Positions 3,102 through 16,525 of a stretch of DNA of 46,970 nucleotides are shown here, piece by piece. Below the pieces are notes generated by a model. It ran no database searches, was not told the DNA's origin, and saw nothing but the letters and a program-made list of their open reading frames with translations. Each line of letters opens with the position of its first letter. Position 1 is the first letter of the stretch. Both the position numbers and the translations under genes were made by a program. The stretch is from Clostridia bacterium (GTDB lineage: Bacteria; Bacillota; Clostridia; Oscillospirales; CAG-382): contig JAFSNK010000010.1 in the NCBI GenBank assembly GCA_017447445.1, forward strand, positions 1 to 46,970, given 5' to 3'.

Positions 3102-3848
3102 TTATACCTCCGTTCCGCAAGGTTCGGCTTTCGGGCAGGTCTTCTGCGCGGAAGCGGTGCCGACGAGCCCCGGAAACACCTTCGACGCCTCGCCCTGGGA
3201 TTTCACCCTGCCTTCGCTTATAACGATTATCTCGTCGGCTATCTGCAGGATACGCTCCTGATGGGAGATTATGAGTATGGAGCTGTCTTTCGTCGTTTCG
3301 CGCATGCGGCGGAAAACGCCGATGAGGTTACGGAAGCTCCAAAGGTCGATGCCCGCTTCCGGTTCGTCGAAGATCGAAAGCTTCGCTCCGCGGGCAAGCA
3401 CTGTCGCGATCTCGATACGTTTCAGCTCGCCGCCGGAAAGACTGGCGTTGACTTCCCTTTCGATATAATCGCGGGCGCAGAGCCCGACGGAAGAAAGGTA
3501 TTCGCAGGCGTCGGAGACCGAAAGCTGCCTGCCCGCAGCGATACGGATAAGGTCGAAAACGTTGATGCCCTTGAACCTGACCGGCTGCTGGAACGCGAAC
3601 GCGATACCCATACGGGCGCGCTCCGTTACGCTTTCGGCGGTGATATCCCTGCCGTTGAAGATTATGCTGCCTTCGTCCGGCGTTTCGATCCCGGCGATCA
3701 GCCGCGCGAGCGTGGATTTCCCGCCGCCGTTCGGCCCGGTGACGACGACAAGTCTGCCGTCCGGTATTTTAAGGTCTATGTTTCTGATTATTTCTTTGCC
3801 CTGACCGGCGTCGTCCACACTGAACGAGACGTTTTTAAGCTCCAGCAC
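3102..3848 (-). CDS. SufC-like Fe-S assembly ATPase (SmsC)
   Basis: A 248-aa ABC-type ATPase that powers cluster assembly on the SufB-like partner; it is cytoplasmic with no membrane segment. Walker A GPNGGGKST is near residues 38-46, the Q-loop follows (AFAFQQPVRF), then the LSGGELKR signature, Walker B LSIFDEPEAGID and the H-loop ISHQER. I chose the GTG at 3848 (protein starting MLELKN) because GGGAGG lies 7 nt upstream and SufC proteins start this way; a longer frame from 3881 has no such site. It is the first gene of a two-gene operon with the SufB-like protein and diverges from the phage-type cassette to its right. The C-terminal tail is cysteine-containing (KTCPKAEPC), which is unusual for SufC. 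Confidence 0.9.
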   Translation of the reverse strand: MLELKNVSFSVDDAGQGKEIIRNIDLKIPDGRLVVVTGPNGGGKSTLARLIAGIETPDEGSIIFNGRDITAESVTERARMGIAFAFQQPVRFKGINVFDLIRIAAGRQLSVSDACEYLSSVGLCARDYIEREVNASLSGGELKRIEIATVLARGAKLSIFDEPEAGIDLWSFRNLIGVFRRMRETTKDSSILIISHQERILQIADEIIVISEGRVKSQGEASKVFPGLVGTASAQKTCPKAEPCGTEV

Positions 3849-4211
3849 GGCGATACCTCCCGAATTCCTTTGATTTCGCACTGTTTTTATATTTTACCAC
3901 AAAAAAACGAATTTGTATAGTGTTTTGGCAAAAAATGTTATTTTCCCGCTTTTGTCGCGGCGTTTTCCCGCACGGGGGACGCGGCGGCGGGGCGGGATTC
4001 CTTTTGGATTAATACGGGATGAATATTCCCCGCATTTGCGTTAGAATTATCGCGTCGGAGGCGAAAGCGCGGCGAAGCGTTTGCATGCGGCGCAAAGCGG
4101 CGCGCGGAGCTCCCGCAGACGGAACGGGCGGACACGTTTTTATTTTGCGCCGTGTTTACCGGCGGAGCGACGCGGGACCTTCGACAAACGCACGGGAAGG
4201 AGGAATGAGCA
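3849..4211. other. divergent intergenic region between smsC and the capsid cassette
   Basis: About 360 bases with no supported gene. The smsC side is AT-rich (TAAAATATAAAA on the minus strand near 3885-3897, a possible -10 but without a good -35). The other half is very GC-rich and contains only short low-quality frames. I found no convincing promoter driving the rightward cassette, which matters for whether it is expressed. A strong AAGGAGG lies at 4197-4203. Confidence 0.5.
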
Positions 4212-4595
4212 ATACCGGAAGAAACGAAAAAGCGCGGGCGGAGCGGTTTTGACAAAGCGGCGCTCGAAAAAGCCGTGAACGATTACTTCGGAGTTTTTCT
4301 TGCCGAAAGCGGCGAGATAGCGGATATGGAATCGCTTGCGGAATATCTGGGCACCACGCGTGACAGACTGCTTGCGCTGACGAACGACAAAAAGTGCGGC
4401 GAGGTGATTAAGCGGGCGCGCAACCGTATAGCGATGATAAAGAAACAGCTTGCTTTCAACGGGAAGATACCCGCCGCGGTGCTTTCGTTCGATCTTAAAA
4501 ACAACCACGGCTACCGCGACAAGCCGGAGGATTCCGAACCCGAGGGAGCGGAACAGATAATCATTAAGGGCCGCGCGACGGATTGGGCGAAATGA
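4212..4595 (+). CDS. terminase small subunit (P22 gp3-like DNA-packaging protein)
   Basis: The small terminase recognises phage DNA and loads the large subunit. The C-terminal part, KKQLAFNGKIPAAVLSFDL then KNNHGYRDK, matches the GP3-type packaging family, in which a helical region ends in a FNLKNNxGWxDK-like motif. The start is odd. The first standard in-frame start is GTG at 4275, but good coding sequence (KKRGRSGFDKAALEKAVNDY) lies upstream, back to ATA at 4212, 8 nt after AAGGAGG; a TGA at 4206-4208 closes the frame just before. An ATG at 4205 is only 1 nt from the SD and in another frame, ending after 15 codons. So the original ATG may have mutated to ATA, or ATA is used. Length from ATA is 127 aa. 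The stop overlaps the TerL start (ATGA). Confidence 0.75.
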   Translation: MPEETKKRGRSGFDKAALEKAVNDYFGVFLAESGEIADMESLAEYLGTTRDRLLALTNDKKCGEVIKRARNRIAMIKKQLAFNGKIPAAVLSFDLKNNHGYRDKPEDSEPEGAEQIIIKGRATDWAK

Positions 4596-5935
4596 AGGAG
4601 CTTGTGATCGACCCGAATCCGAAACAGCGGATGTTTTTCGAATCGACCGCGAAATATACCGCCTACGGAGGAGCGAGAGGCGGAGGAAAAAGCTGGGCGA
4701 TGCGCGTAAAGCTTATACTTCTGGCGCTGAATTACGAAGGCATACAGATATTGCTTTTGCGCCGCACGCTTACGGAACTGCGGGAAAACCATCTGCTGCC
4801 GATGCAGAAGCTGCTGGAAGGGATCGCGCGGTATTCCGCGGGGGAAAAGGAATTCCGGTTCAAAAACGGCTCGCGGATAAAGCTGGGCTACTGCGACAGC
4901 GAAAGCGACGTTCTGCAGTACCAGGGGCAGGCGTACGAGGTGATCGGAATGGAGGAGGCGACTCATTTCACCGAATTTCAGTTCAACGCGCTTACCGAAA
5001 GCAACCGCGCCTCCGGAAATATGAAAACGCGGTTCGCGCCGAGGATGTATTTCACCTGCAATCCCGGCGGAGTCGGACACGAGTGGGTGAAAAGGCGGTT
5101 TATCGACAGGAGCTTCCGCGGGAGCGAGAAGCCGGAGGATTACCTTTTTATAAAATCGCTTGTGTTCGACAACCGCTACATAATGGAAAACGATCCCGGC
5201 TACGTGCAAACGCTTATGAATCTTCCCGAATCGCGCCGGAAGGCGATGCTCTACGGCGACTGGAATGCTTTCGAGGGCGCTTTCTTCCCCGAATTCAATC
5301 CCGAAAAGCATACGGTGCCGCCGCCGGACATCCCGGAAGGCAGCATTCGGTTCCGCGCGCTGGATTACGGGCTGGATATGACCGCCTGTCTGTGGTGCTT
5401 TGCCGGTCCCGACGGCGGAGTTACGGTTTACCGCGAGCTTTACGAAAGCGGGCTTCTGCTTTCCGAAGCGGCGAAAAAGATCGTTGCGCTTACCGGGAAG
5501 GGCGAAAATATTCGCTACACGGCGGCGTCTCCCGACCTGTGGAACCGCAGGCAGGAAAGCGGCAGAAGCGGGTTCGAGATAATGACCGCGAGCGGGCTGA
5601 AGCAGTTGATAAAGGCGGACGACGCGCGCATCCCGGGGTGGCGCGTCGTGCGCGAATACCTTAAAGGCGGCGAGCATTCGCCGGGGCTTAAAATAAGCCG
5701 CGACTGCGTGAACCTTATACGCTGTCTGCCGCTGCTGCGGTTCGACGAGCGTGTGCGTGAGGACGCGGCGGGCACCCCGCACGAGATAACGCACGCGCCG
5801 GAAGCGCTGCGCTACGCGCTATGCTCGCGCATACCGAAACCCGCTTTGCAAAAGCGCCCGGCGGGCGGGATCTACAGCTTTTCCCCGCGTGTGACCGAGC
5901 CGCGGGCGGACTACGCCGAATTTTTGGATTACTGA
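4592..5935 (+). CDS. terminase large subunit
   Basis: The DNA-packaging motor and headful nuclease, 447 aa. Walker A is GGARGGGKS near residues 26-34; the Walker B region is VIGMEEATHF near residue 115, with the catalytic acid after a hydrophobic strand. The C-terminal RNase H-like nuclease begins at RFRALDYGLDMTACLWC, whose Asp would bind metal, and continues through AASPDLWNRR. I chose ATG at 4592, overlapping the TerS stop, over an upstream TTG at 4583. The length is usual for terminases of Firmicutes podophages. No inactivating change is visible, so the ATPase and nuclease could be active. The next gene, the portal, follows after about 10 nt. Confidence 0.92.
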   Translation: MKELVIDPNPKQRMFFESTAKYTAYGGARGGGKSWAMRVKLILLALNYEGIQILLLRRTLTELRENHLLPMQKLLEGIARYSAGEKEFRFKNGSRIKLGYCDSESDVLQYQGQAYEVIGMEEATHFTEFQFNALTESNRASGNMKTRFAPRMYFTCNPGGVGHEWVKRRFIDRSFRGSEKPEDYLFIKSLVFDNRYIMENDPGYVQTLMNLPESRRKAMLYGDWNAFEGAFFPEFNPEKHTVPPPDIPEGSIRFRALDYGLDMTACLWCFAGPDGGVTVYRELYESGLLLSEAAKKIVALTGKGENIRYTAASPDLWNRRQESGRSGFEIMTASGLKQLIKADDARIPGWRVVREYLKGGEHSPGLKISRDCVNLIRCLPLLRFDERVREDAAGTPHEITHAPEALRYALCSRIPKPALQKRPAGGIYSFSPRVTEPRADYAEFLDY

Positions 5936-5945
5936 AAGAGGTTTT

Positions 5946-7511
5946 ATGAAACTTACGAAAAACGCGCCCTTTACTGATGAATGGCTGCTCTATGAAAAGG
6001 GCAAGGAGTACAATTACTCCATCGATCTTTACAACAAGGTGAACACCAACGAGAGGTTTTACAGAGGCGACCAGTGGGATAACATCAATCCCGGCGGACT
6101 GCCGACGCCGGTGTTCAACATCTTCAAGCGCATCATCGGCTATTTCACCAGCAGTATAATGCAGAATTCGGTGAAGATGCGCTACACCATATGTTCTCCG
6201 GGCGGCGGCGGATACGGCATAAGCGAGGAGGAGGCGAACGCCGCCTCTGAAAAGCTCAACCGCATTTCCGAAATGCGGTGGCGCAAAAACAAAATGGAAA
6301 GTCTTATCGCCTCGTCGCTTACCGACGCCGCCGTTTCGGGGGACGCCGTCTGCTATACCTACTGGGACCCGGATATACGCACCGGACAGCCGTTCACGGG
6401 GGATTTCGTGACCGTGCTGATCGACAACACGAACGTATTCTTCGGGGACCCGAACTCCAAGGACGTACAGAAGCAGCCGTACATCCTTATTTCCCGCCGC
6501 GAGACGGTGGAAAGTCTTGTCGACCAGGCGAAAAAGAACGGGATCGCGCCGGAGATGATCGCAAAGATAAGGCCCGACGACGAGACCGAAACGCTTTCGG
6601 GCGATATGGCGAAAAAGGAGATAGCGGACACCAAGTGCATTTCGCTTATAAAGCTGTGGAAGGGCGAAAACGGACACGTTTTCTACCGCAAGTCGGTTAA
6701 AAACGCGGTGATAAAGGAGACGACCGACACTTCCCTGCTGCTTTACCCGGTGGCGTTCTATAACTGGAGCCCCATTAAGAACAGTTGGCACGGGCAGGCG
6801 GTGGGCACCGGACTCGTCGAGAATCAGATATTCATAAACAAGGGCTTCGCCATGGTTATGAAGCATATGATGGACACCGCGTTTTCGAAGGTCGTGTACG
6901 ATTCTACGATGCTGGACAGTTGGTCCAACCGCGTGGGCGAGGCGATAGCCGTGAACGGCCCCGTGGAGAACGTGGCAAAGGTGATCTCGCCCGGGCAGAT
7001 GCAGTCCGGCATGCTGGACGTGATCTCCATGGCGATAGCGAACACGAAGGAGTTTATGGGAGCGACGGACACCGCCCTGGGCGACGTTACGCCCACGAAC
7101 ACCAGCGCCATACTCGCGCTGCAGAACGCTTCGGCGGTGCCTTTGGAGAACGTGAAGCGCTCGCTTTACCAGTTCGTGGAGGATATCGGGCTGATCTGGC
7201 TGGACTTTATGTTCGCCTATTACGACGACAGGCGGCTGGTTGGATTTATCGAATCCGGAAGCGAAAAGTACGAAAAATTCGGGTTTTCGAAATACCGCGA
7301 CGAGATATTCAACTGCCGCGTGGACGTAGGATCGGGCAGCTACTGGAGCGAGATATCCTCGCTGAACACGCTCGACGGTCTGCTTAAGCTCGGCAAAATA
7401 AGCACCGTGCAGTATCTTGAACGCATACCCGAGGGACTTATTCCCGATAAGGACAAGCTTATCGAAGAGATCCGCGCCGCGGAACTTAACAAAGGAGACG
7501 AACAGGAATGA
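5946..7511 (+). CDS. phage portal protein
   Basis: A 521-aa portal protein; twelve copies would form the ring at one capsid vertex through which terminase pumps DNA and to which the tail machinery attaches. The identification rests on the position directly after TerL, the length, and portal-like features: an N-terminal NTNERFYRGDQW segment followed by a VFNIFKRII membrane-distal helix, a central beta-rich domain with GDAVCYTYWDP, and the long FMGATDTALGDVTPTNTSA segment near residue 370 typical of P22-type and SPP1-type portals in Firmicutes. The SD is AAGAGG, with ATG at 5946. Its last codon overlaps the scaffold start by 4 nt (ATGA). Confidence 0.9.
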   Translation: MKLTKNAPFTDEWLLYEKGKEYNYSIDLYNKVNTNERFYRGDQWDNINPGGLPTPVFNIFKRIIGYFTSSIMQNSVKMRYTICSPGGGGYGISEEEANAASEKLNRISEMRWRKNKMESLIASSLTDAAVSGDAVCYTYWDPDIRTGQPFTGDFVTVLIDNTNVFFGDPNSKDVQKQPYILISRRETVESLVDQAKKNGIAPEMIAKIRPDDETETLSGDMAKKEIADTKCISLIKLWKGENGHVFYRKSVKNAVIKETTDTSLLLYPVAFYNWSPIKNSWHGQAVGTGLVENQIFINKGFAMVMKHMMDTAFSKVVYDSTMLDSWSNRVGEAIAVNGPVENVAKVISPGQMQSGMLDVISMAIANTKEFMGATDTALGDVTPTNTSAILALQNASAVPLENVKRSLYQFVEDIGLIWLDFMFAYYDDRRLVGFIESGSEKYEKFGFSKYRDEIFNCRVDVGSGSYWSEISSLNTLDGLLKLGKISTVQYLERIPEGLIPDKDKLIEEIRAAELNKGDEQE

Positions 7512-8050
7512 AAAAGATCAACAACGAACAGATACTCGATATGATCTACGATCTCGCCGACGCGGCGGGAATGCGGATCGGCGAGTTTATGGAAAAGCTC
7601 GGCGAAGAATACGGTATAAAGCCGATCCCCGACGATCTGCCGGAGGATATCGCCGCCGAGCTTGCCGAAGCGCGCGAGCTGAAGAAGCGCGAGCGAGCCA
7701 ACGCGAAGAAGGCGGAAAGCGAGAACGCCGCCGCGGAGGAGATTAAGCGCTTCCGCGAGCTGTTCCCGGACGTCGGCGCCGATTCCATACCCGATGAGGT
7801 TTGGGAGGACGTCGCCGCCGGAGCCGACCTTCCGCACGCCTACGCCTTTTACAAGATAAAGGGCGAGGGCGAAAAGCTTTACGCCGACGCGGTGAACCGC
7901 CGCAATTCCGAAAAAGGCGCCGCGGCGTCCGGAGACGGAGCGACCGAACCCGCCTACACCAAGGACGAGGTGGAAAAGATGACCGGCGGCGAAGTACGCA
8001 AAAACTATAAAAACATCGTTCGCGCGATGAAAAACTGGAGATTCAACTGA
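7508..8050 (+). CDS. probable capsid scaffolding protein
   Basis: A 180-aa, highly charged protein. Residues ~50-90 form a predicted coiled coil rich in Ala, Glu, Lys and Arg; the C-terminus is basic (EVRKNYKNIVRAMKNWRF), as in scaffolds that contact the coat protein through a basic helix-turn-helix. It sits between the portal and coat genes, exactly where P22 gene 8 lies, and overlaps the portal by 4 nt. Scaffolds diverge fast, so the call depends on position and composition, not on sequence similarity. No protease gene is nearby, consistent with a P22-style reusable scaffold. Confidence 0.75.
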   Translation: MKKINNEQILDMIYDLADAAGMRIGEFMEKLGEEYGIKPIPDDLPEDIAAELAEARELKKRERANAKKAESENAAAEEIKRFRELFPDVGADSIPDEVWEDVAAGADLPHAYAFYKIKGEGEKLYADAVNRRNSEKGAAASGDGATEPAYTKDEVEKMTGGEVRKNYKNIVRAMKNWRFN

Positions 8051-8067
8051 AAGAAAGGATTTGAAAA

Positions 8068-8892
8068 ATGGCGAACTACAACAGCATTGAAAAAGTTATA
8101 AGCGCGGAGATCCTTCGCACAAACGAGGACAACCTGCTGGCGAACAAGATATGCAACACCGAATTCGTCGGCGACATTAAGAAAAAGGGCGACAGCGTTG
8201 TGTTCGTAGGTCTTTCCGACCCGACCGTGTACGATTACACCGGCACCGTGACCTATGAGGACATCGACGACGCCGCCACCCAGCTTCTTGTCGACCAGGA
8301 CAAGGCGTTCTCCTTTAAGATAAAGGATATCGAGGCGCTCCGTTCCTCCATCGGTCTGCAGGAAAGCCAGACCAAGCGCGCAAGCTACCTTCTGAAAAAC
8401 GAAGTCGACACCTACGTTTTCGGGCTTTACGGCGAAGCGGGCACCACGATGTCCGCGGTATCCGTTACCCCGGCGAACGTGCTTTCCACCATTGCCGAAA
8501 TGAAGCAGACGCTTGAGGAAGCGAACGTTCCCGACGGGAAGACCTGGATAGTCGTTCCCCCGTTCGTCAAGACCAAGCTTATGCTCGCGGGGATAAAATT
8601 CCAGATCAACAACGGCGTGAACGGCACCGGAGCAGTCGCATTCACCGACGAGCTCGGCTGCGACATATTCGTTTCGAACCAGCTCGCGGTTTCCGGCGGC
8701 AACACCATGATGCTCGCGGGGTCCTATTCCTCGGTCGCATACGCCGAGCAGGTGCTGGAGACGCAGGTCATTGACCGTCTCGAAAACTCGTTCGACAAAG
8801 CCGTTCGCGGCAGACTGGTGTTCGGCGCGAAGGTCATTCGCCCGGCGGAGCTCGTCTGCTGCCCCGTAAGCGACGGCGGCAATTCCATATGA
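8068..8892 (+). CDS. major capsid (coat) protein, HK97 fold, P22-coat-like
   Basis: A 274-aa coat protein. The N-terminus (MANYNSIEKVISAEILR), the GDSVVFVGLSDPTVYDYTG strand and the QLLVDQDKAFSFKIKDIEA segment follow the pattern of short P22-type coat proteins found in Firmicutes podophages, where a GDTV strand is followed by a Q(K)xFxFxIDD(V/I) motif. The C-terminal part (VDTYVFGLYGEAG, then the WIVVPPFVKTKLM strand) fits the HK97 A-domain. It is shorter than P22 coat (430 aa), suggesting loss of the inserted domain. The SD AAAGGA is 8 nt upstream. Assembly would use the scaffold encoded upstream. Confidence 0.85.
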   Translation: MANYNSIEKVISAEILRTNEDNLLANKICNTEFVGDIKKKGDSVVFVGLSDPTVYDYTGTVTYEDIDDAATQLLVDQDKAFSFKIKDIEALRSSIGLQESQTKRASYLLKNEVDTYVFGLYGEAGTTMSAVSVTPANVLSTIAEMKQTLEEANVPDGKTWIVVPPFVKTKLMLAGIKFQINNGVNGTGAVAFTDELGCDIFVSNQLAVSGGNTMMLAGSYSSVAYAEQVLETQVIDRLENSFDKAVRGRLVFGAKVIRPAELVCCPVSDGGNSI

Positions 8893-8915
8893 TCCATTAA
8901 ACAGGAGGATGAAAA

Positions 8916-9311
8916 ATGGCTACTCAGAACATTACCGTAAACAAAACCGGCGGTTTTTATTCCGCTTCGGAGCTTAAGCTCGACGCGATAACCTCGCTTA
9001 CCAAGACAGCCGACCTTGCCGCCGACATAAGCGGCGCGGGCGACCATTTCTACGCGATCGTGGACATTCCCGCGGATTCCACCGGGACCTATTCGCTTAC
9101 CTTCAAGGCGGGCGATTACAACGAAGGCGGCAAGGATATCACCGTATCGCTCACCGCCGAGAAGCTCAACGTGATCCCGTTCACCAGTCTCGAGGCGAAG
9201 AAATACAACGGCAAGGCGATGCTCACGCTTACCACCGACAACGTACTGGGGCTTGCCGCACTCGGCGTTTCCGTCGGTGTGCTGGCGCACGTCGGAGCCG
9301 TAAACCACTAA
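8916..9311 (+). CDS. possible head decoration protein
   Basis: A 131-aa small protein directly after the coat gene, with SD AGGAGG. It is beta-rich, Thr/Ala/Gly-rich and lacks cysteine. A slightly hydrophobic end (LGLAALGVSVGVLAHVG) may be a buried strand or helix. Many phages encode a capsid-stabilising decoration protein at this position, and its strong SD next to the coat gene suggests high expression. No motif proves the role; a fibre-like or minor head protein is also possible. It is followed by a hairpin terminator that would separate capsid from connector expression. Confidence 0.55.
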   Translation: MATQNITVNKTGGFYSASELKLDAITSLTKTADLAADISGAGDHFYAIVDIPADSTGTYSLTFKAGDYNEGGKDITVSLTAEKLNVIPFTSLEAKKYNGKAMLTLTTDNVLGLAALGVSVGVLAHVGAVNH

Positions 9312-9321
9312 ACGACGCAGC

Positions 9322-9359
9322 GCGGGGAGGAGCGGCGCCTCCTTCCCCGCTTCTTTTTG
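9322..9359 (+). terminator. internal terminator/attenuator after the coat and decoration genes
   Basis: GCGGGGAGGAG pairs with CTCCTTCCCCGC (one bulge), followed by TTCTTTTTG. It lies inside the cassette, 11 bases after the decoration-like stop and 20 bases before the connector gene. Such a site would keep head proteins high and connector proteins low. Confidence 0.65.
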
Positions 9360-9377
9360 AATTCAGGAGGAATTACC

Positions 9378-9761
9378 ATGACGGGACAACAATTACTTCA
9401 ATCGGCGCTCGACCTGTGCGCCCTGCGTGAAACGGACGGAACGATACCCGCCGATTCCGCCGATATGACTCAGCGCGCGCCCGCGCTGATAAACGTACTG
9501 CTTGCCGAGAACGCCTGGCTGGACGCACGCGTTTCCAAAACGGCGCTCGCGGTCCACACGATAAGCGCGCTTTCCGACACGCTGAACGTTCACCCGTTGA
9601 TCGCTTCCGGCGTACTTCCCTACGGGCTGGCGCGGCTTTTGCTTACCGGGGAGGACGACGCTTCGGCGGCGCGGTTCGGCGAGCTGTATGAAGCCGCGCG
9701 GGCGGAAACGCTTCGCAGCGGCAGAGCCGCCGCCGGATCGGTAACGGAGGTATACGAATGA
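9378..9761 (+). CDS. head-tail connector (P22 gp4-like position)
   Basis: A 127-aa, mostly helical protein (MTGQQLLQSALDLCALRE...), which matches the short helical adaptors that ring the portal in podophages (gp4-type) and siphophages (gp15/gp6-type). The start is ATG at 9378 with AGGAGG 7 nt upstream; a longer TTG frame at 9357 overlaps the upstream terminator and is unlikely. It lies between the coat-decoration genes and the gp10-like gene, as gp4 does in P22. The gp4 of P22 is also a peptidoglycan hydrolase; I see no such motif here. The last codon overlaps the next start by 4 nt. Confidence 0.6.
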   Translation: MTGQQLLQSALDLCALRETDGTIPADSADMTQRAPALINVLLAENAWLDARVSKTALAVHTISALSDTLNVHPLIASGVLPYGLARLLLTGEDDASAARFGELYEAARAETLRSGRAAAGSVTEVYE

Positions 9762-11467
9762 GCTTCGTTACTTGCTCCGGGTTCGAAGGGCTGGACGAGC
9801 GCGTAACGCTTCAAAGCGGGATAGGAAGCTCCAGATCGATGCGAAACTTCCGGCTGAACGCCGAATCGGCGCTGGAGAAGCGCCCCAACCGCACGCTCGT
9901 TCTCGACGCCCCGGCGAAGATAGAAGGGATCTGGAAGGGCGTTATAGGCGGGAGCGAGCAAACGCTGATCTCCGCCGGAGGCACGCTGTTTTCGTTTGAC
10001 CGCGACAACGCTTCGTTAGCGACGATAGGCGCCATCGGCTCGGGAAGCTGCGATTTCTTTATGTTCGGCGGCGCGCTTTACATACTCAACGGGACGAAAT
10101 ACTGCAAATACGACGGCTCCTCGGTCTGCGAGGTGGCGGGGTACGTCCCCTGCGTGGCGGTATCCAGCGCGCCGGGCGGCGAAGGCACCCCCTACGAGCC
10201 GCTGAACGCGCTGAATCCGGCGCGCAGGCAGCTTTTTAACGGAAGCGGGACCGACACGGTCTACAAGCTTGCCGAAACCGACCTCGACAGCGTTTCTTAC
10301 GTAAAGATCGACGGCACGGAGGAGCATCACTACGTCGCCGACCTCACCGCGGGCGAGATACGGTTCACCGATCCTCCCGCAAGCGGGCTGGACAACGTGG
10401 AGGTCTGCTACGTGAAAAACGACAACGGCAGGAGCAGGATAACCAAATGCCGCAAGGCGATGCAGTTCGGCGGCAATTCCGACGGCAGGATATTCCTTTG
10501 GGGCAACCCGGATTCCCCCGACTGCCGTTTTTATTCCGATATCGCCGACGGAGTTCCGAGCGCCGAATACTTCCCGGTGAACAATTTTACGGTGATCGGC
10601 GACAGCGAGATCACCTGCATCGTGCAGCAGTACGACAGGCAGCTTATATTCACGCGCGAACGCGCATATTATTCTTACTGTGAGCTGAAAGAGGACGCGG
10701 GCGGCAGGATCCGGTCCTCGTTCCCGGTGTTCAGTCTGAACGGCGGCAAGGGCTGCCTTATAAGCACCGGGGGCTGCGTTATAGACAACCGCCCGGTGAC
10801 CTTCTGCGGCGACGGGCTGAACGTGTGGGAATCCACCGGAGTGGAGAACGAGAAGAACGCCGTGTGCGTCTCCGGCGCGCTGTGCGAAACGATGCGCTAC
10901 GCGGTGCAGGCGCTTGAAAGCGGCACGGTTCCGAAGCTGTTCGACCACCAGTACCGCCGCGAGCTGTATTTCATACTCGGTCCCGCGGCGTACGTTTACA
11001 ACTACGACACGAAGCGCTGGTATTTGCTGGACGGATTCGGCTGCGACGAATACTTCGTTTACGGAAGCGCGATCTTCTTTTCCAAGGGCACGAAGCTTTA
11101 CGTTTATTCCGACGACGAAGGGTTTTCGGATTCCGGATTCTCCTGCGTGTGGCAGAGCGCGGACACGCTTTTGGGGCAGGCGGCGGGCAGATTCGACGTT
11201 GTGAACTGCGAGGCGGACGTTTTCGTCACCGGGCCGATGGACCTTAAGCTGGAGTTCGTACAGCAGAACGGAAAAGGCGGCGCGGCGAGAGAATACGCCT
11301 TTGCCTTCGGCGACGAAGGACACAAACGCATAAGCGTGCGCCCCGCGATAAAACGCGCGCTTCCGGCGTACGTAAAGATAACCGCCTCGGGCGCGGGCGG
11401 GATAAAGATATACGGGATGACCGTTAAAACAAGAAAACGTGAAAGGAGCGACAGAAATGGCATATAA
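9758..11467 (+). CDS. P22 gp10-like packaged-DNA stabilisation / tail hub protein
   Basis: A 569-aa protein with repeated beta-blade patterns: short W/F-G-D/N loops such as GGALYILNGTKYCKYDG, NSDGRIFLWGNPDSPDC, YDRQLIFTRERAYY and YNYDTKRWYLLDGFG. This agrees with a beta-propeller, as in P22 gp10, which plugs the portal after packaging. Gene order (connector, then this gene) supports it. The last ~80 residues (MDLKLEFVQQNGKGG onward) look like a C-terminal beta domain. The stop falls 8 codons into the next gene. There is no enzymatic domain. The call is inferred from order and fold pattern. Confidence 0.6.
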   Translation: MSFVTCSGFEGLDERVTLQSGIGSSRSMRNFRLNAESALEKRPNRTLVLDAPAKIEGIWKGVIGGSEQTLISAGGTLFSFDRDNASLATIGAIGSGSCDFFMFGGALYILNGTKYCKYDGSSVCEVAGYVPCVAVSSAPGGEGTPYEPLNALNPARRQLFNGSGTDTVYKLAETDLDSVSYVKIDGTEEHHYVADLTAGEIRFTDPPASGLDNVEVCYVKNDNGRSRITKCRKAMQFGGNSDGRIFLWGNPDSPDCRFYSDIADGVPSAEYFPVNNFTVIGDSEITCIVQQYDRQLIFTRERAYYSYCELKEDAGGRIRSSFPVFSLNGGKGCLISTGGCVIDNRPVTFCGDGLNVWESTGVENEKNAVCVSGALCETMRYAVQALESGTVPKLFDHQYRRELYFILGPAAYVYNYDTKRWYLLDGFGCDEYFVYGSAIFFSKGTKLYVYSDDEGFSDSGFSCVWQSADTLLGQAAGRFDVVNCEADVFVTGPMDLKLEFVQQNGKGGAAREYAFAFGDEGHKRISVRPAIKRALPAYVKITASGAGGIKIYGMTVKTRKRERSDRNGI

Positions 11468-12500
11468 CGACGCGATAGAGCAGCTTAAAAACGCGCTTAA
11501 GGGCTATTCCGACGAGGAGGACCGCATTAAAGAGCTTTACGCGAAGGCGAAGGGCGCGATAAACGAAAGCTATGCCCGCGATATCGCGGCGGCGGAGCGC
11601 GAACGCGCCGAAAAGCGCGCGGAGGCGGAAGCCGACGCGAAGCGGCAGATACGCAATACCGACCTTACCCTGGCGGCGCGCGGGCTTGCTTTTTCCGGTG
11701 AGGCGGCGCAGACGCGTCTGGATTCGGCGCTGGGATTGAACAAGCGGCTGGCGGCGATAGACGCCGAACACGCCAGGGCGGAAAACGAGCTGGCGAAAGC
11801 GCGGCTCGAAAGCGAGACCAAGGCGGACGGCGAGGAGGCGAAACGCGTTTCCGACGCGCGCGAGGGACAGAACCGGATAAAAAGCGAGATCGCGCAGTTG
11901 GAGATAAAGCGCGAAGCCGAGCAGGCTAAGGCGGCGGAGCGCGAACGCGCGGCGGCGCCCGCGGCCGCCGCAGATACGGAGGTCTCCCCCGCGGGGAACG
12001 GCTACCGCCCTCCCGTTACGGCGCGCGTGCTTGCCGAGCAGATAATAAACTCGGTGAACTCCCGCGGCTACGTTACGAAGAGCTGGGAGATGAAAAAGAT
12101 CGCCGACAAGCTGGATAACCTGGTGAAGGGTTACGAGATCGACAAGGATTACCTCGACGACCTGATATTCACGCTTCGCGCTTACGGCTACACCGAGCCG
12201 AAGCAGGAGACCAGAAGCGCGCTGCAGATACTCGCCGACGACGCGGAAGCGTTTTACAAGAGCAGCTACGCGACCACCTACGCCGCCTGCCAGATGGCGG
12301 GGTTCAACGAGGATTATTCCACGTCCCACGCGAAGGAAAAAGCCACCGCGAAGCTTTTGGAATACGTGTACGACCGCGTTTCCGACGCGCGCGAGTTCCG
12401 CAACGTCTGCACCGTGCTCGGGATAAGCGGCGCGGAGGCGAACGAATACCTTGAAAAGCAGCGCGTCGGCGGAAAAGAGCCGGCGGAGAGCTCAAAATAA
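11457..12500 (+). CDS. coiled-coil virion-associated protein, unknown role
   Basis: A 347-aa protein. Residues ~1-175 form a long Ala/Glu/Arg-rich coiled coil; after a short Ala/Pro linker, residues ~185-347 form a compact helical C-terminal region (RVLAEQIINSVNSRGYVTK..., then ...FNEDYSTSHAKEKATAK). It starts at ATG 11457 with AAAGGAG, overlapping the gp10-like stop. In P22 the genes that follow gp10 encode the tail needle and the DNA-ejection proteins, which are helical; this could fill that role or be a minor tail protein. No enzyme motif. The strong charge pattern warns against reading weak similarities as homology. Confidence 0.55.
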   Translation: MAYNDAIEQLKNALKGYSDEEDRIKELYAKAKGAINESYARDIAAAERERAEKRAEAEADAKRQIRNTDLTLAARGLAFSGEAAQTRLDSALGLNKRLAAIDAEHARAENELAKARLESETKADGEEAKRVSDAREGQNRIKSEIAQLEIKREAEQAKAAERERAAAPAAAADTEVSPAGNGYRPPVTARVLAEQIINSVNSRGYVTKSWEMKKIADKLDNLVKGYEIDKDYLDDLIFTLRAYGYTEPKQETRSALQILADDAEAFYKSSYATTYAACQMAGFNEDYSTSHAKEKATAKLLEYVYDRVSDAREFRNVCTVLGISGAEANEYLEKQRVGGKEPAESSK

Positions 12501-12515
12501 AACGGAGGTGCGGGA

Positions 12516-12848
12516 TTGAGCGAATACATAGACGAAAACCTTTATATCCTTATACCCGTGCTCTACGCGCTCGGCGCCGCGATAAAGAAAAGCCGCATAA
12601 AGGATTGGCTTATCCCCTATATCCTCGGAGGCGCTGGGATACTGCTTTCGGTGGCTTATCTGCTTGCCGTTTCGAAGATCGGCGACGCGGCGGACGTTTT
12701 CGGGATAATATTCGCCGGGACGACGCAGGGCGTGCTCTGCGCGGCGGCGAGCGTTTACACCGACAACCTTATTAAGCAGGCGCAAAAAAGAAACGAAGAC
12801 GGAAAGGGCGGCAAAATAAATGAAAAAGATGCTGAGGACGATAGCTGA
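12516..12848 (+). CDS. phage holin (Phage_holin_5_2-like)
   Basis: A 110-aa membrane protein with three hydrophobic segments (about residues 9-24, 31-52 and 60-80) and a short charged tail ending KDAEDDS. The pattern YILIPVLYALGAAIKKSRIKD, then WLIPYILGGAGILLS, matches the small holins often found in Firmicutes prophages. It starts at TTG 12516 with GGAGGTG 7-9 nt upstream. Holins open the membrane to release endolysin; no endolysin follows, so the lysis function may be incomplete, may rely on a host enzyme, or the protein may now serve another purpose. Confidence 0.75.
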   Translation: MSEYIDENLYILIPVLYALGAAIKKSRIKDWLIPYILGGAGILLSVAYLLAVSKIGDAADVFGIIFAGTTQGVLCAAASVYTDNLIKQAQKRNEDGKGGKINEKDAEDDS

Positions 12849-12900
12849 ATGGTTCGCGCACGGCGCCGACTGCATTTATCTGCTGTTATACGGCGGCTGA
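12820..12900 (+). CDS. 26-aa peptide, possible small gene
   Basis: A short frame, MKKMLRTIAEWFAHGADCIY and six more residues, stops one base before the next start at 12902 and begins inside the end of the holin gene. It is amphipathic, with a basic start and a Leu/Tyr-rich end (LLLYGG). The tight packing suggests a real gene; an SD (GGAAAGGG, about 9-11 nt upstream) is only fair. It could also be chance. Confidence 0.35.
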   Translation: MKKMLRTIAEWFAHGADCIYLLLYGG

Positions 12901-12901
12901 A

Positions 12902-13228
12902 ATGTGGTACGAGGCGGCGGGCGAGCTGATCACGCTGGCGCTTTCCTCGGCGGGGGCGGCGGGCACCCTGCTTGCCTGCGTGTTCGCCTGGATGCTTAAA
13001 AAGGCGAGGCGCGACGCGGAACGCCACCGCGAGGAGCGTCTGAAGCTGGATATTATTCGGCTGGAGGGCGAGGAAAAGCTTTCGGAGCTGGTGTACGCGA
13101 TGGTGCGTCAGGTGCGCGGCACCGGGACCGCGCGCGAGCTGGACGACGCGGAGGAGGCGTACAGCGAATATCTTGAAAGCGCCAGAAGGATGAAAAACGA
13201 AATATTGAGCTACTACACCGCGAAATGA
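12902..13228 (+). CDS. small membrane-anchored coiled-coil protein after the holin
   Basis: A 108-aa protein with one transmembrane segment (residues ~8-33, ending AWMLKK) followed by a charged helical region rich in Arg/Glu (RRDAERHREERLKLDIIRLEG). This shape, N-terminal membrane helix plus cytoplasmic coil, is common in small proteins next to phage holins (XhlA-like or anti-holin-like), but no specific family is recognised. It is the last cassette gene, ending 20 bases before the terminator stem. No lysin is present. Confidence 0.6.
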   Translation: MWYEAAGELITLALSSAGAAGTLLACVFAWMLKKARRDAERHREERLKLDIIRLEGEEKLSELVYAMVRQVRGTGTARELDDAEEAYSEYLESARRMKNEILSYYTAK

Positions 13229-13247: not shown

Positions 13248-13290
13248 GGGCGGCGGGGCGCGCGATTTTTGCGCCGCGCCGCCTTTTTTG
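13248..13290 (+). terminator. strong terminator ending the capsid cassette
   Basis: GGGCGGCGGGGCGC and GCGCCGCGCCGCC form a GC-rich hairpin around a CGATTTTT loop, followed by TTTTTTG. It separates the cassette from the next operon, whose promoter starts at 13294. Confidence 0.85.
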
Positions 13291-13341: not shown

Positions 13342-13914
13342 ATGAACTACGACAGCGGCGCGCTTTCGCCGGACGAGAACAAGCCGATTAAAACGGTGAG
13401 CGCAAAAACCAAAAAACGGCTGTTGACGCTTGCCTTCGCCGCTTTGGGCATAATAGCGGCGGCCGGCGCGATACTTGTATTCTCGCGCATATTCCGCGGC
13501 GCGGGCACCCCGCAGAAGGCGGCGGCGGAATACGTGCGCGCCTCGCTGGTGTACGATATCGACGGAATGATAGAATACGCCTCGCCCTATGCGAAGGTCG
13601 TGCTTTACGGCAACGAACAGACGAGCGACAGACTGCTTAAAAGCTACCTTAAAAAGGCGTACGCGGAATACTCCGCCCCTTCCTACAGCGGCGACCAGAT
13701 AGTTTTCAAATTGCTTGCGGTCACCGAATACCACGAAGGCGACGACACCTTTGAAAAAATAATGAAGCGCTACGGCGAGAAAGCGGACCGGAGCGAGGTG
13801 GAAGCCGCCGCCGAGGTACAGCTTACGGTGAACGACACGAAAAGCGAAAAGACGCACAGCTATATAGTCGTGAAGATAGGTCCCTCGTGGTATTACGCAT
13901 ATACGAGCAAATAG
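13342..13914 (+). CDS. membrane-anchored protein with NTF2/DUF4878-like extracellular domain
   Basis: A 190-aa protein with a Lys-rich cytoplasmic start (~30 aa), one transmembrane helix (about 31-50, LAFAALGIIAAAGAILVF) and a soluble part beginning GTPQKAAAEYVRASLVYDIDG. The pattern 'A-AEYVRASL-DIDGMIEY' is typical of DUF4878/NTF2-like cup domains found in secreted or lipid-linked proteins of Clostridia. These are often of unknown role. It starts at 13342 with GAGGTG upstream. Nine bases separate its stop from the next start, so the two genes are likely co-transcribed. It is not part of the capsid cassette. Confidence 0.7.
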   Translation: MNYDSGALSPDENKPIKTVSAKTKKRLLTLAFAALGIIAAAGAILVFSRIFRGAGTPQKAAAEYVRASLVYDIDGMIEYASPYAKVVLYGNEQTSDRLLKSYLKKAYAEYSAPSYSGDQIVFKLLAVTEYHEGDDTFEKIMKRYGEKADRSEVEAAAEVQLTVNDTKSEKTHSYIVVKIGPSWYYAYTSK

Positions 13915-15556: not shown

Positions 15557-16447
15557 TTATTTCTTCTTTTTCTTTGCGATGATCGCACCGCAGACAGCCG
15601 CAACGGCAATCACCGCGCAGGCAATGATTATCCAGAGAGTCCAGTTGGTGCCTTTGGACTCCGCGGGCTTGGATTCCTCCGCGGGTTTGGACTCTTCAGC
15701 GGGTTTGGACTCTTCAGCGGGTTTGGATTCCTCGGCGGGCTTGGATTCTTCCGCGGGTTTGGATTCCTCGGCGGGTTTGGATTCTTCCGCAGGTTTGGAT
15801 TCCTCGACGGATGCTTCGGATTCGGTTCCGTCGACGGATTCAACAGGTTCGATTCCGCCGCTCACGACATCGAGCTTGTTTACAGTGATAACGCCGCCGT
15901 TGACCGAGAACAGGAGTATGCCGGCGAAGGTAACGCCGCCATTGACAACGTAGGCGCTGTCGAACTGGGTGCCGGGATACCTGGAGACCGCCTCGGTAAG
16001 CTGTTTTACGGTGAAAGCGCCCTTGTAGGTGCCGCCGAGCATATCTCCGCCGCCGGCGTCATAGTCGTAGGAATCGCCGAGCAGGGTGCTGGAGATCGGG
16101 AAGCCGTAAAGCGAAGAGGAAGCGCCGTTGGTGAAAAGGAAGGTTATGTTGGCGGCGCCGTTTTCGACGGTGAAATCGTAACGGACAACGTCGTCCGGGC
16201 CGGCGGGGATATACCGATCCTCGGGGTAGACGCACTGAGCGGAAGGCCAGGTCCCGGAAGCGGAACCGGAGATCACGCAGGTGTCGCCGTTCCATTCGAT
16301 TTTCACGGAAGCGCCGCCGTGATCCTCGCGGGTCCAGGTGCCGTCTTTGGGAATGAGACCGGTATCTCCGTATTCGGCAGATGCAAACACGCAGCAGCTT
16401 ATCGCCACGAAAACGACAGCCAGCGCGATGGTGATGATACGTTTCAT
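15557..16447 (-). CDS. secreted membrane-anchored protein with EESKPA repeat stalk
   Basis: A 296-aa protein. Residues 1-25 are a signal peptide (MKRIITIALAVVFVAIS...). A beta-rich domain follows (about 26-205), then a stalk of about eight EESKPA hexapeptides (each an 18-bp DNA repeat), then a C-terminal transmembrane helix ending in KKKKK that would leave the domain displayed outside and anchored in the membrane. There is no LPXTG. The start is ATG 16447 with GGAGG; the longer frame from 16525 reads through its own promoter. It has its own promoter at 16497-16525. Surface role unknown; ligand binding is possible. Confidence 0.75.
   Translation of the reverse strand: MKRIITIALAVVFVAISCCVFASAEYGDTGLIPKDGTWTREDHGGASVKIEWNGDTCVISGSASGTWPSAQCVYPEDRYIPAGPDDVVRYDFTVENGAANITFLFTNGASSSLYGFPISSTLLGDSYDYDAGGGDMLGGTYKGAFTVKQLTEAVSRYPGTQFDSAYVVNGGVTFAGILLFSVNGGVITVNKLDVVSGGIEPVESVDGTESEASVEESKPAEESKPAEESKPAEESKPAEESKPAEESKPAEESKPAEESKPAESKGTNWTLWIIIACAVIAVAAVCGAIIAKKKKK
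15654..15810 (-). repeat. 18-bp coding repeats (EESKPA x ~8)
   Basis: Tandem 18-bp units encode EESKPA, with third-position differences between copies. The length is likely to vary between strains by slippage. They form the stalk between the extracellular domain and the membrane anchor. Confidence 0.85.
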
Positions 16448-16496
16448 GATATTCCTCCGTTCAACGCCGCCGAAGCGGCATTTTTTTGTTCTGTTG

Positions 16497-16525
16497 ATTA
16501 TAGCACAATTCGCGGGTGCAGTCAA
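16497..16525 (-). promoter_or_regulatory. promoter of the surface protein
   Basis: On the minus strand TTGACT (16520-16525), a 17-bp spacer and TATAAT (16497-16502). The -35 overlaps the stop of the GH36 gene, so the surface gene is a separate unit, although upstream read-through is possible. Confidence 0.75.

Follow-up and report, generated by a model that had tools for sequence, protein, structure and literature searches.

Described relatives and the cassette

Outside the Alphaproteobacteria, few gene transfer agents (GTAs) are known. RcGTA of Rhodobacter and the other alphaproteobacterial GTAs are vertically inherited, phage-derived structural clusters without replication or integration genes, PBSX of Bacillus subtilis is long-tailed and has lysis and regulation genes of its own, and the head genes of phage P22 follow the order 3-2-1-8-5-4-10. 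The subject of this work is a cassette of phage-type genes at positions 4212..13228 of contig JAFSNK010000010.1 from a Clostridia bacterium, which was analysed as one stretch of 46,970 nucleotides (the window). All of its genes point rightward and all reading frames are open. We read the cassette as an intact podovirus-type gene set, mainly vertically inherited and kept by its hosts, that most likely works as a GTA, and we give this reading a probability of about 0.72. Searches of open-licence papers gave no other report of the cassette.

The nearest described system is FpGTA of Faecalibacterium, presented in 2026 as the first GTA called podovirus-like and reported from one genus (PMC12946183). 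According to that report, a 10.5 kb operon of ten open reading frames (ORFs) specifies TerS, TerL, portal, scaffold, major capsid protein (MCP) and short-tail proteins, a second operon holds fibre, receptor-binding protein, holin and endolysin, the particles measure 40 nm and contain about 9 kb of DNA, and the system occurs in all 12 of the 12 Faecalibacterium genomes examined there. There, the FpGTA TerS is reported to have no obvious DNA-binding domain, delivery itself is unproven, and a PBSX-like option is raised in the discussion (PMC12946183). Compared by described gene content, the cassette in the window resembles FpGTA operon I in being a single operon of about 10 kb for TerS, TerL, portal, scaffold, MCP and short-tail proteins, in having no replication genes and in residing in a gut Clostridia host. 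It differs in belonging to another host group and in having a holin, a 26-residue peptide and the gene g108 in the same cassette, whereas the lysis, fibre and receptor-binding genes of FpGTA are described as lying in the second operon (PMC12946183).

Among isolated phages, Bacillus phage Page (Pagevirus) has the same terS-terL-portal-scaffold-MCP order with one extra gene ahead of its portal, and Page ORFs match our models of the scaffold, the nozzle and, weakly, g353. However, Page is a complete 39.9 kb phage with tail spike and fibres, none of which was recognised in the cassette. To the P22-like phages the likeness is in the nozzle, which has a fold as in P22 gp10. With RcGTA the cassette shares vertical inheritance and a structural cluster devoid of replication and integration genes, but RcGTA is long-tailed with other gene content and the cassette is short-tailed. 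PBSX is likewise long-tailed and has regulation genes, while no regulator was recognised in the short-tailed cassette. What the two would have in common is being a domesticated DNA-packaging particle of a Gram-positive bacterium; PBSX is also named in the FpGTA report (PMC12946183).

Among the features expected of a GTA, phage-derived structural and packaging genes without recognised integration or replication genes, vertical inheritance and purifying selection are found together at this locus, as is the short-tail structural protein (nozzle fold) expected of the FpGTA type. A temperate prophage would have integrase and replication or regulation genes beside its head genes, which were not found here, and a satellite would have mobility and an integrase of its own; inheritance is instead mainly vertical and no integrase was found on the contig in a search directed at tyrosine integrases. 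The cassette most likely works as FpGTA operon I does.

Distribution, inheritance and chromosomal site

A TerL search in 149 relatives gave matches in 118; TerL is present in 18 of the 23 other species of the window's genus (g1) and in 38 of the 39 other species of the family. Of the 63 genomes of the family, 42 have the MCP of the window's kind, here called type A: 19 of the 24 from the window's genus and all 23 from seven other genera. A TerL or MCP match was obtained for 43 of the 47 genomes of these eight type-A genera. There is normally one copy per genome, leaving aside genes split over two contigs (TerL and MCP of G058; MCP of G020). The only genome of genus g11 had neither a TerL nor an MCP match.

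Completeness was assessed in 40 type-A loci, 26 of which are long enough for the whole cassette; a gene was counted complete when at least 85% of its model was covered by one ORF, the models having been built from the very same loci. On this basis terS, terL, portal, mcp, g134 and g353 are complete in 26/26 loci, the nozzle gene in 25, the holin gene in 24, the scaffold gene in 22 (it is shorter in g6), g131 in 22 (it was not detected in g6) and g108 in 21, and all eleven genes are present in 17. Stops inside the portal matches of G044 and G054 were considered as possible interruptions, but fall at the genes' own 3' ends, and both portals were counted complete.

The cassette has been inherited mainly vertically over a long time and has been under purifying selection, not in decay. 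A tree of TerL, portal and MCP was made for 32 of the 37 genomes with all three genes, the others lacking rpoB. It has 22 of 29 splits in common with the rpoB tree, and 19 of 24 strong cassette splits are found there as well. Cassette and rpoB distances in the 32 genomes are correlated (Pearson 0.89, Spearman 0.68, Mantel 0/2000), with Pearson values of 0.74-0.85 for single genes and a Spearman value of 0.45 for terS. The ratio of nonsynonymous to synonymous substitution rates (dN/dS), computed on stop-to-stop frames with the synonymous rate dS near saturation in several pairs, is at most 0.48 for all 125 finite estimates out of 128 gene comparisons in 13 chosen species pairs, 106 of them being at most 0.25. 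Values of dS are of the same order as those of neighbouring host genes; in the pair G028/G040, for example, cassette genes give 0.21-1.25, lepA 0.63 and hemW 0.49.

A common ancestral site on the chromosome is also seen. The genes lepA-hemW lie upstream of the cassette in 15 genomes from five genera (G013, where they are inverted, G015, G016, G020, G022, three genomes of g5, five of g6, one of g8 and one of g10), and in g5, g6 and g8 hemW and terS are separated by a gtrA-like gene. On the other side, f190 follows the cassette at a distance of about 3 kb or less in 13 g1 genomes, the window included. In the window's genome lepA-hemW are on another contig and smsCB adjoins the cassette instead, with f190 and f513 still downstream. 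Three g10 genomes have trkA-trkH neighbours in common, and five g2 genomes have other common neighbours. Genome G006 has the order lepA, hemW, a 46-codon ORF (L157:8310-8447), two DUF4855/F5_F8 and esterase-like genes, f190 and f513; when the ORF was searched alone, 31 of its residues matched the end of g108 with an E-value of 1.1e-8. The arrangement is a deletion scar, with a remnant of g108, at the ancestral site. An empty site is demonstrated for G006 alone; in G012, G017 and G002, the last of which is sister to G006 by rpoB, lepA-hemW stand at a contig end, so that absence of the cassette may be an assembly gap.

Proposed working and rival explanations

In the working that we propose, the scaffold and MCP would build a small capsid, which TerS and TerL would fill with host DNA by way of the portal. 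A stub tail would be made up of g134 and the g569 nozzle, and g353 would serve as the tip of the tail or in ejection. Opening of the membrane would fall to the Hol44 holin, acting with the micropeptide and g108, and a host autolysin would join them in letting the particles escape. These particles are predicted to be small and short-tailed and to carry host DNA fragments to other cells. Any receptor-binding protein may be supplied by another locus, as is described for FpGTA (PMC12946183). With its ancestral site, its deletion scar and a selection record that can be measured, this family-wide, mainly vertical set would allow the reasons for which bacteria keep GTAs to be tested in gut bacteria that are Gram-positive.

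Several observations weigh against the GTA reading. For this family the particle, the packaged DNA and the transfer are all predictions. No tail fibre or endolysin was recognised among the cassette proteins with Pfam and PHROGs, a genome-wide endolysin search not having been made, and a fibre N-terminal model built from other families gave two weak matches in the 63 genomes of the window's family. The cassette TerS retains a conserved helix-turn-helix-like stretch (read by eye), unlike the TerS reported for FpGTA. TerL and MCP were undetected in four of the 47 genomes of type-A genera (G002, G006, G012 and G017), the nozzle gene of G044 is broken into two ORFs, holin and g108 were undetected in G009 and in genus g2 (five of the five loci extending beyond g353), and g108 was undetected also in G014, G039 and G044. 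Among the five strong cassette splits absent from the rpoB tree, one, the grouping of g8 with g10, is contradicted by a strong split of the rpoB tree. Cassette dS in the pair G028/G048 (0.08-0.83) is mostly above that of the host neighbours (0.05-0.30), and lepA in the pair G048/G059 (0.53) is above most cassette genes, which points to some exchange or recombination.

Of the rival explanations, the one that survives best, although we consider it improbable, is a domesticated particle with another job, either a PBSX-like DNA-filled killing particle or the lysis of a few cells for the benefit of the group, without useful DNA delivery. The cassette proteins include no recognised receptor-binding fibre or endolysin, which would suit such a role, and so would the unproven delivery and the PBSX-like option in the FpGTA report (PMC12946183). 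Terminase, portal, adaptor and nozzle are nevertheless all kept under purifying selection, and a particle releasing no DNA would not obviously need them.

Far less probable is that the cassette supplies capsids to a phage satellite, or is the structural portion of a larger mobile element that has been split. In favour of this, tyrosine-recombinase matches exist in 61 of the 63 family genomes, ordinary host Xer-type genes included. The claim of the preliminary description that there is no integrase holds, however, for tyrosine integrases on the window's contig, serine recombinases not having been searched: the four matches in the genome are all on other contigs, and among the matches listed only G036 has a tyrosine recombinase on the cassette contig, about 22 kb off. 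Near-universal, mainly vertical inheritance also speaks against it. Among the 20 largest of at least 60 repeat families, no long direct repeats were seen to bracket the cassette; a short att site may be present.

A shade less probable again is a prophage remnant in decay, from which integrase, replication and tail-fibre genes disappeared by chance. It would account for the lack of mobile functions, for the split G044 nozzle and for the undetected holin and g108 of G009 and g2, but it does not fit the constancy of gene content, order and spacing across eight genera, the host-like tree, the dN/dS ceiling of 0.48 or the common site. Both the satellite and the decayed-prophage readings were rejected on gene order and site, dN/dS, the tree, completeness and the lack of a tyrosine integrase on the contig. 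The preliminary description had listed them beside a domesticated particle and a GTA-like system and had proposed comparisons of synteny and of dN/dS per gene; both comparisons favour a domesticated, GTA-like particle, the upstream and downstream host genes recurring as given above, with no pseudogene-level rates and no scattering of the cassette over variable sites. Repeated independent infection by host-specific phages that track the host tree could explain the one strongly supported tree conflict and the uneven dS within g6, but is hardly credible given the lepA-hemW position across five genera, the deletion scar and remnant at that site, and the phage records, in which MCP, portal and TerL each have their best match below 60% identity.

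Gene products and wider relatives

The cassette genes and the terminator described here lie on the plus strand. The small terminase gene terS (gp3-like, 4212..4595) matches PF16677 (E 4.6e-8) and phrog_606, and alignment A5 has 21 invariant columns across its 22 sequences. The terS frame has no ATG, GTG or TTG at 4212; it opens with ATA, 8 nt downstream of a strong Shine-Dalgarno sequence AAGGAGG, and the next listed start is GTG 4275. It is followed by the large terminase gene terL (4583..5935; PF04466, PF03237) and by a portal gene of P22 type (5946..7511; PF16510, E 9.9e-15; alignment A9). The scaffold gene (7508..8050) was assigned by position, its phrog_2303 match (E 0.93) being at chance level, and the scaffold family model matches a Page ORF located between portal and capsid (E 1.3e-16). 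The MCP gene (8068..8892, 274 residues) matches PF25209 (E 1.5e-9) and phrog_267 (E 3.8e-39). From their positions, g131 (8916..9311; weak phrog_1859 match, E 0.011) is a likely head decoration protein and g134 (9378..9761; alignment A3), at the position of gp4, a likely head-to-tail adaptor. The g569 product (9758..11467) is, from its predicted P22 gp10 / T7 gp12 fold, a podovirus short-tail nozzle protein.

The head gene order of P22, which the preliminary description had recognised, is thus borne out, by Pfam for gp3, TerL, portal and capsid, by fold for gp10 and by position only for gp8 and gp4. The same description had called the cassette tailless, which is wrong because the nozzle is present. 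Of the other parts that it gave as missing, fibre and endolysin were indeed not recognised in the cassette; a Hol44 holin is there in addition to the nozzle. No regulator was recognised in the cassette, and no replication gene either, though several cassette proteins are without a family.

The gene g353 (11457..12500, 347 residues from ATG) is predicted to form a long helical hairpin and a C-terminal helical domain (predicted local distance difference test, pLDDT, 82.9; predicted template modelling score, pTM, 0.40) and is likely a tail-tip, needle or ejection protein. A weak homologue in Page lies 3' of the tail-fibre gene (E 3.8e-7), and a viral fold search with the g353 model gave no clear match. 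Profiles of g569, g134, g353 and TerS gave nothing convincing against sequences of solved structures.

The lysis module begins with the Hol44 family holin gene (12516..12848; PF16079, E 8.9e-22; phrog_1129) and ends with g108 (12902..13228; alignment A4), which has a membrane segment, identified by eye, and a helical tail. The only Pfam match of g108 is a sub-threshold one to EACC1, and we suggest it as a putative lysis-module partner. Between them, a 26-codon ORF (12820..12900) overlaps the holin end and stops beside g108; its product is MKKMLRTIAEWFAHGADCIYLLLYGG. An equivalent ORF of 21-34 codons exists at the same place in 23 of the 24 loci with both holin and g108, in another frame than the holin and stopping about 20 nt or less from where g108 starts, and for this reason we take the ORF, doubtful when first described, as a real micropeptide gene. 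Many of these peptides are basic at the N-terminus and aromatic at the C-terminus (IYE or LYG-like), a conservation judged by eye, without a chance expectation and with close relatives among the 24 loci. The position of the gene suggests a role in release.

A likely intrinsic terminator (13249..13290), read by eye as a G+C-rich inverted repeat with a run of T behind it, comes after g108. Both flanks are host genes: the SufBD-core and ABC-ATPase genes (smsCB) on the left, with the smsC-like ABC ATPase (PF00005) at 3102..3881 on the minus strand, and f190 (13342..13914, plus strand), which is 3' of the cassette in g1, and f513 on the right, these being retained in related hosts. The host-like composition noted earlier was found again, the G+C content of the cassette resembling that of its flanks. 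A LexA-like palindrome, CGAAC-N4-GTTYG, is present upstream of terS in 3 of 40 loci (L080, L081 and L083); as it is confined to genus g10, SOS control of the window's cassette is not supported.

Isolated phages in the record collection searched are distant, the best portal match being 32% identical (Bacillus phages such as Page) and the best MCP match 29%. The MCP and TerL are 30% and 54% identical, respectively, to those of an unverified 9.6 kb human-faecal scaffold, which itself resembles a related cassette, and the two IMG/VR contigs with the closest MCP (L006, L007) are pieces of the cassette itself. The GTA reading would also account for contigs in virome databases that look like phage but belong to bacterial chromosomes. 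Cassettes of this kind are entered as viral in virus collections, for example L007 (IMG/VR 3300025154_002811) and L184 (GenBank MT836592.1).

Within the family, all 15 genomes of genera g3, g4, g7 and g9 have a TerL that is about 50% identical. The nine loci examined there (L090, L094, L096-L102) hold a second type of cassette (type B), which has a portal, a capsid and other genes of its own and, where the locus extends that far (L100 ends short), a distantly related nozzle. In both g9 loci examined the type B cassette is followed by the ribosomal gene rplJ.

In the order as a whole, the portal profile matched 129 of 396 sampled genomes at an E-value of 1e-20. Family f17 has the portal in 20 of 22 genomes and in 8/8 genera, as a single copy each. 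In the three f17 species checked (G117, G078 and G145) terS-terL and the portal and capsid genes are on different contigs, which is not expected of a prophage moving as one unit; the separated pair suggests that these genes no longer serve a phage. In family f13 the portal was found in 36 of 54 genomes; six genera have it in all or nearly all of their genomes and others lack it. A fibre-like protein without counterpart in type A was found in the cassette region of at least one genome in six of the eight other families examined. A wider picture, which we hold tentatively as plausible but short of probable, is that short-tailed GTAs were domesticated anciently in this order of Clostridia and stand order-wide as single-copy cassettes, persisting in several families, that were relocated, pruned of fibres or split into motor and capsid parts at separate places on the chromosome, with release by a holin and a conserved 21-34-residue peptide, and that they would give these uncultured bacteria a regular way of exchanging small chromosome fragments.

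In G117 and G078 the terS-terL genes (L087, L088) stand by themselves as a pair surrounded by host genes, those downstream being the same in both, and capsid and nozzle are on L168 and L170; in G145 a GH25-like lysozyme gene, named by eye, lies near terS-terL. Beside the cassette in the window, f322 (15557-16525, 322 residues) contains tandem EESKPA repeats.

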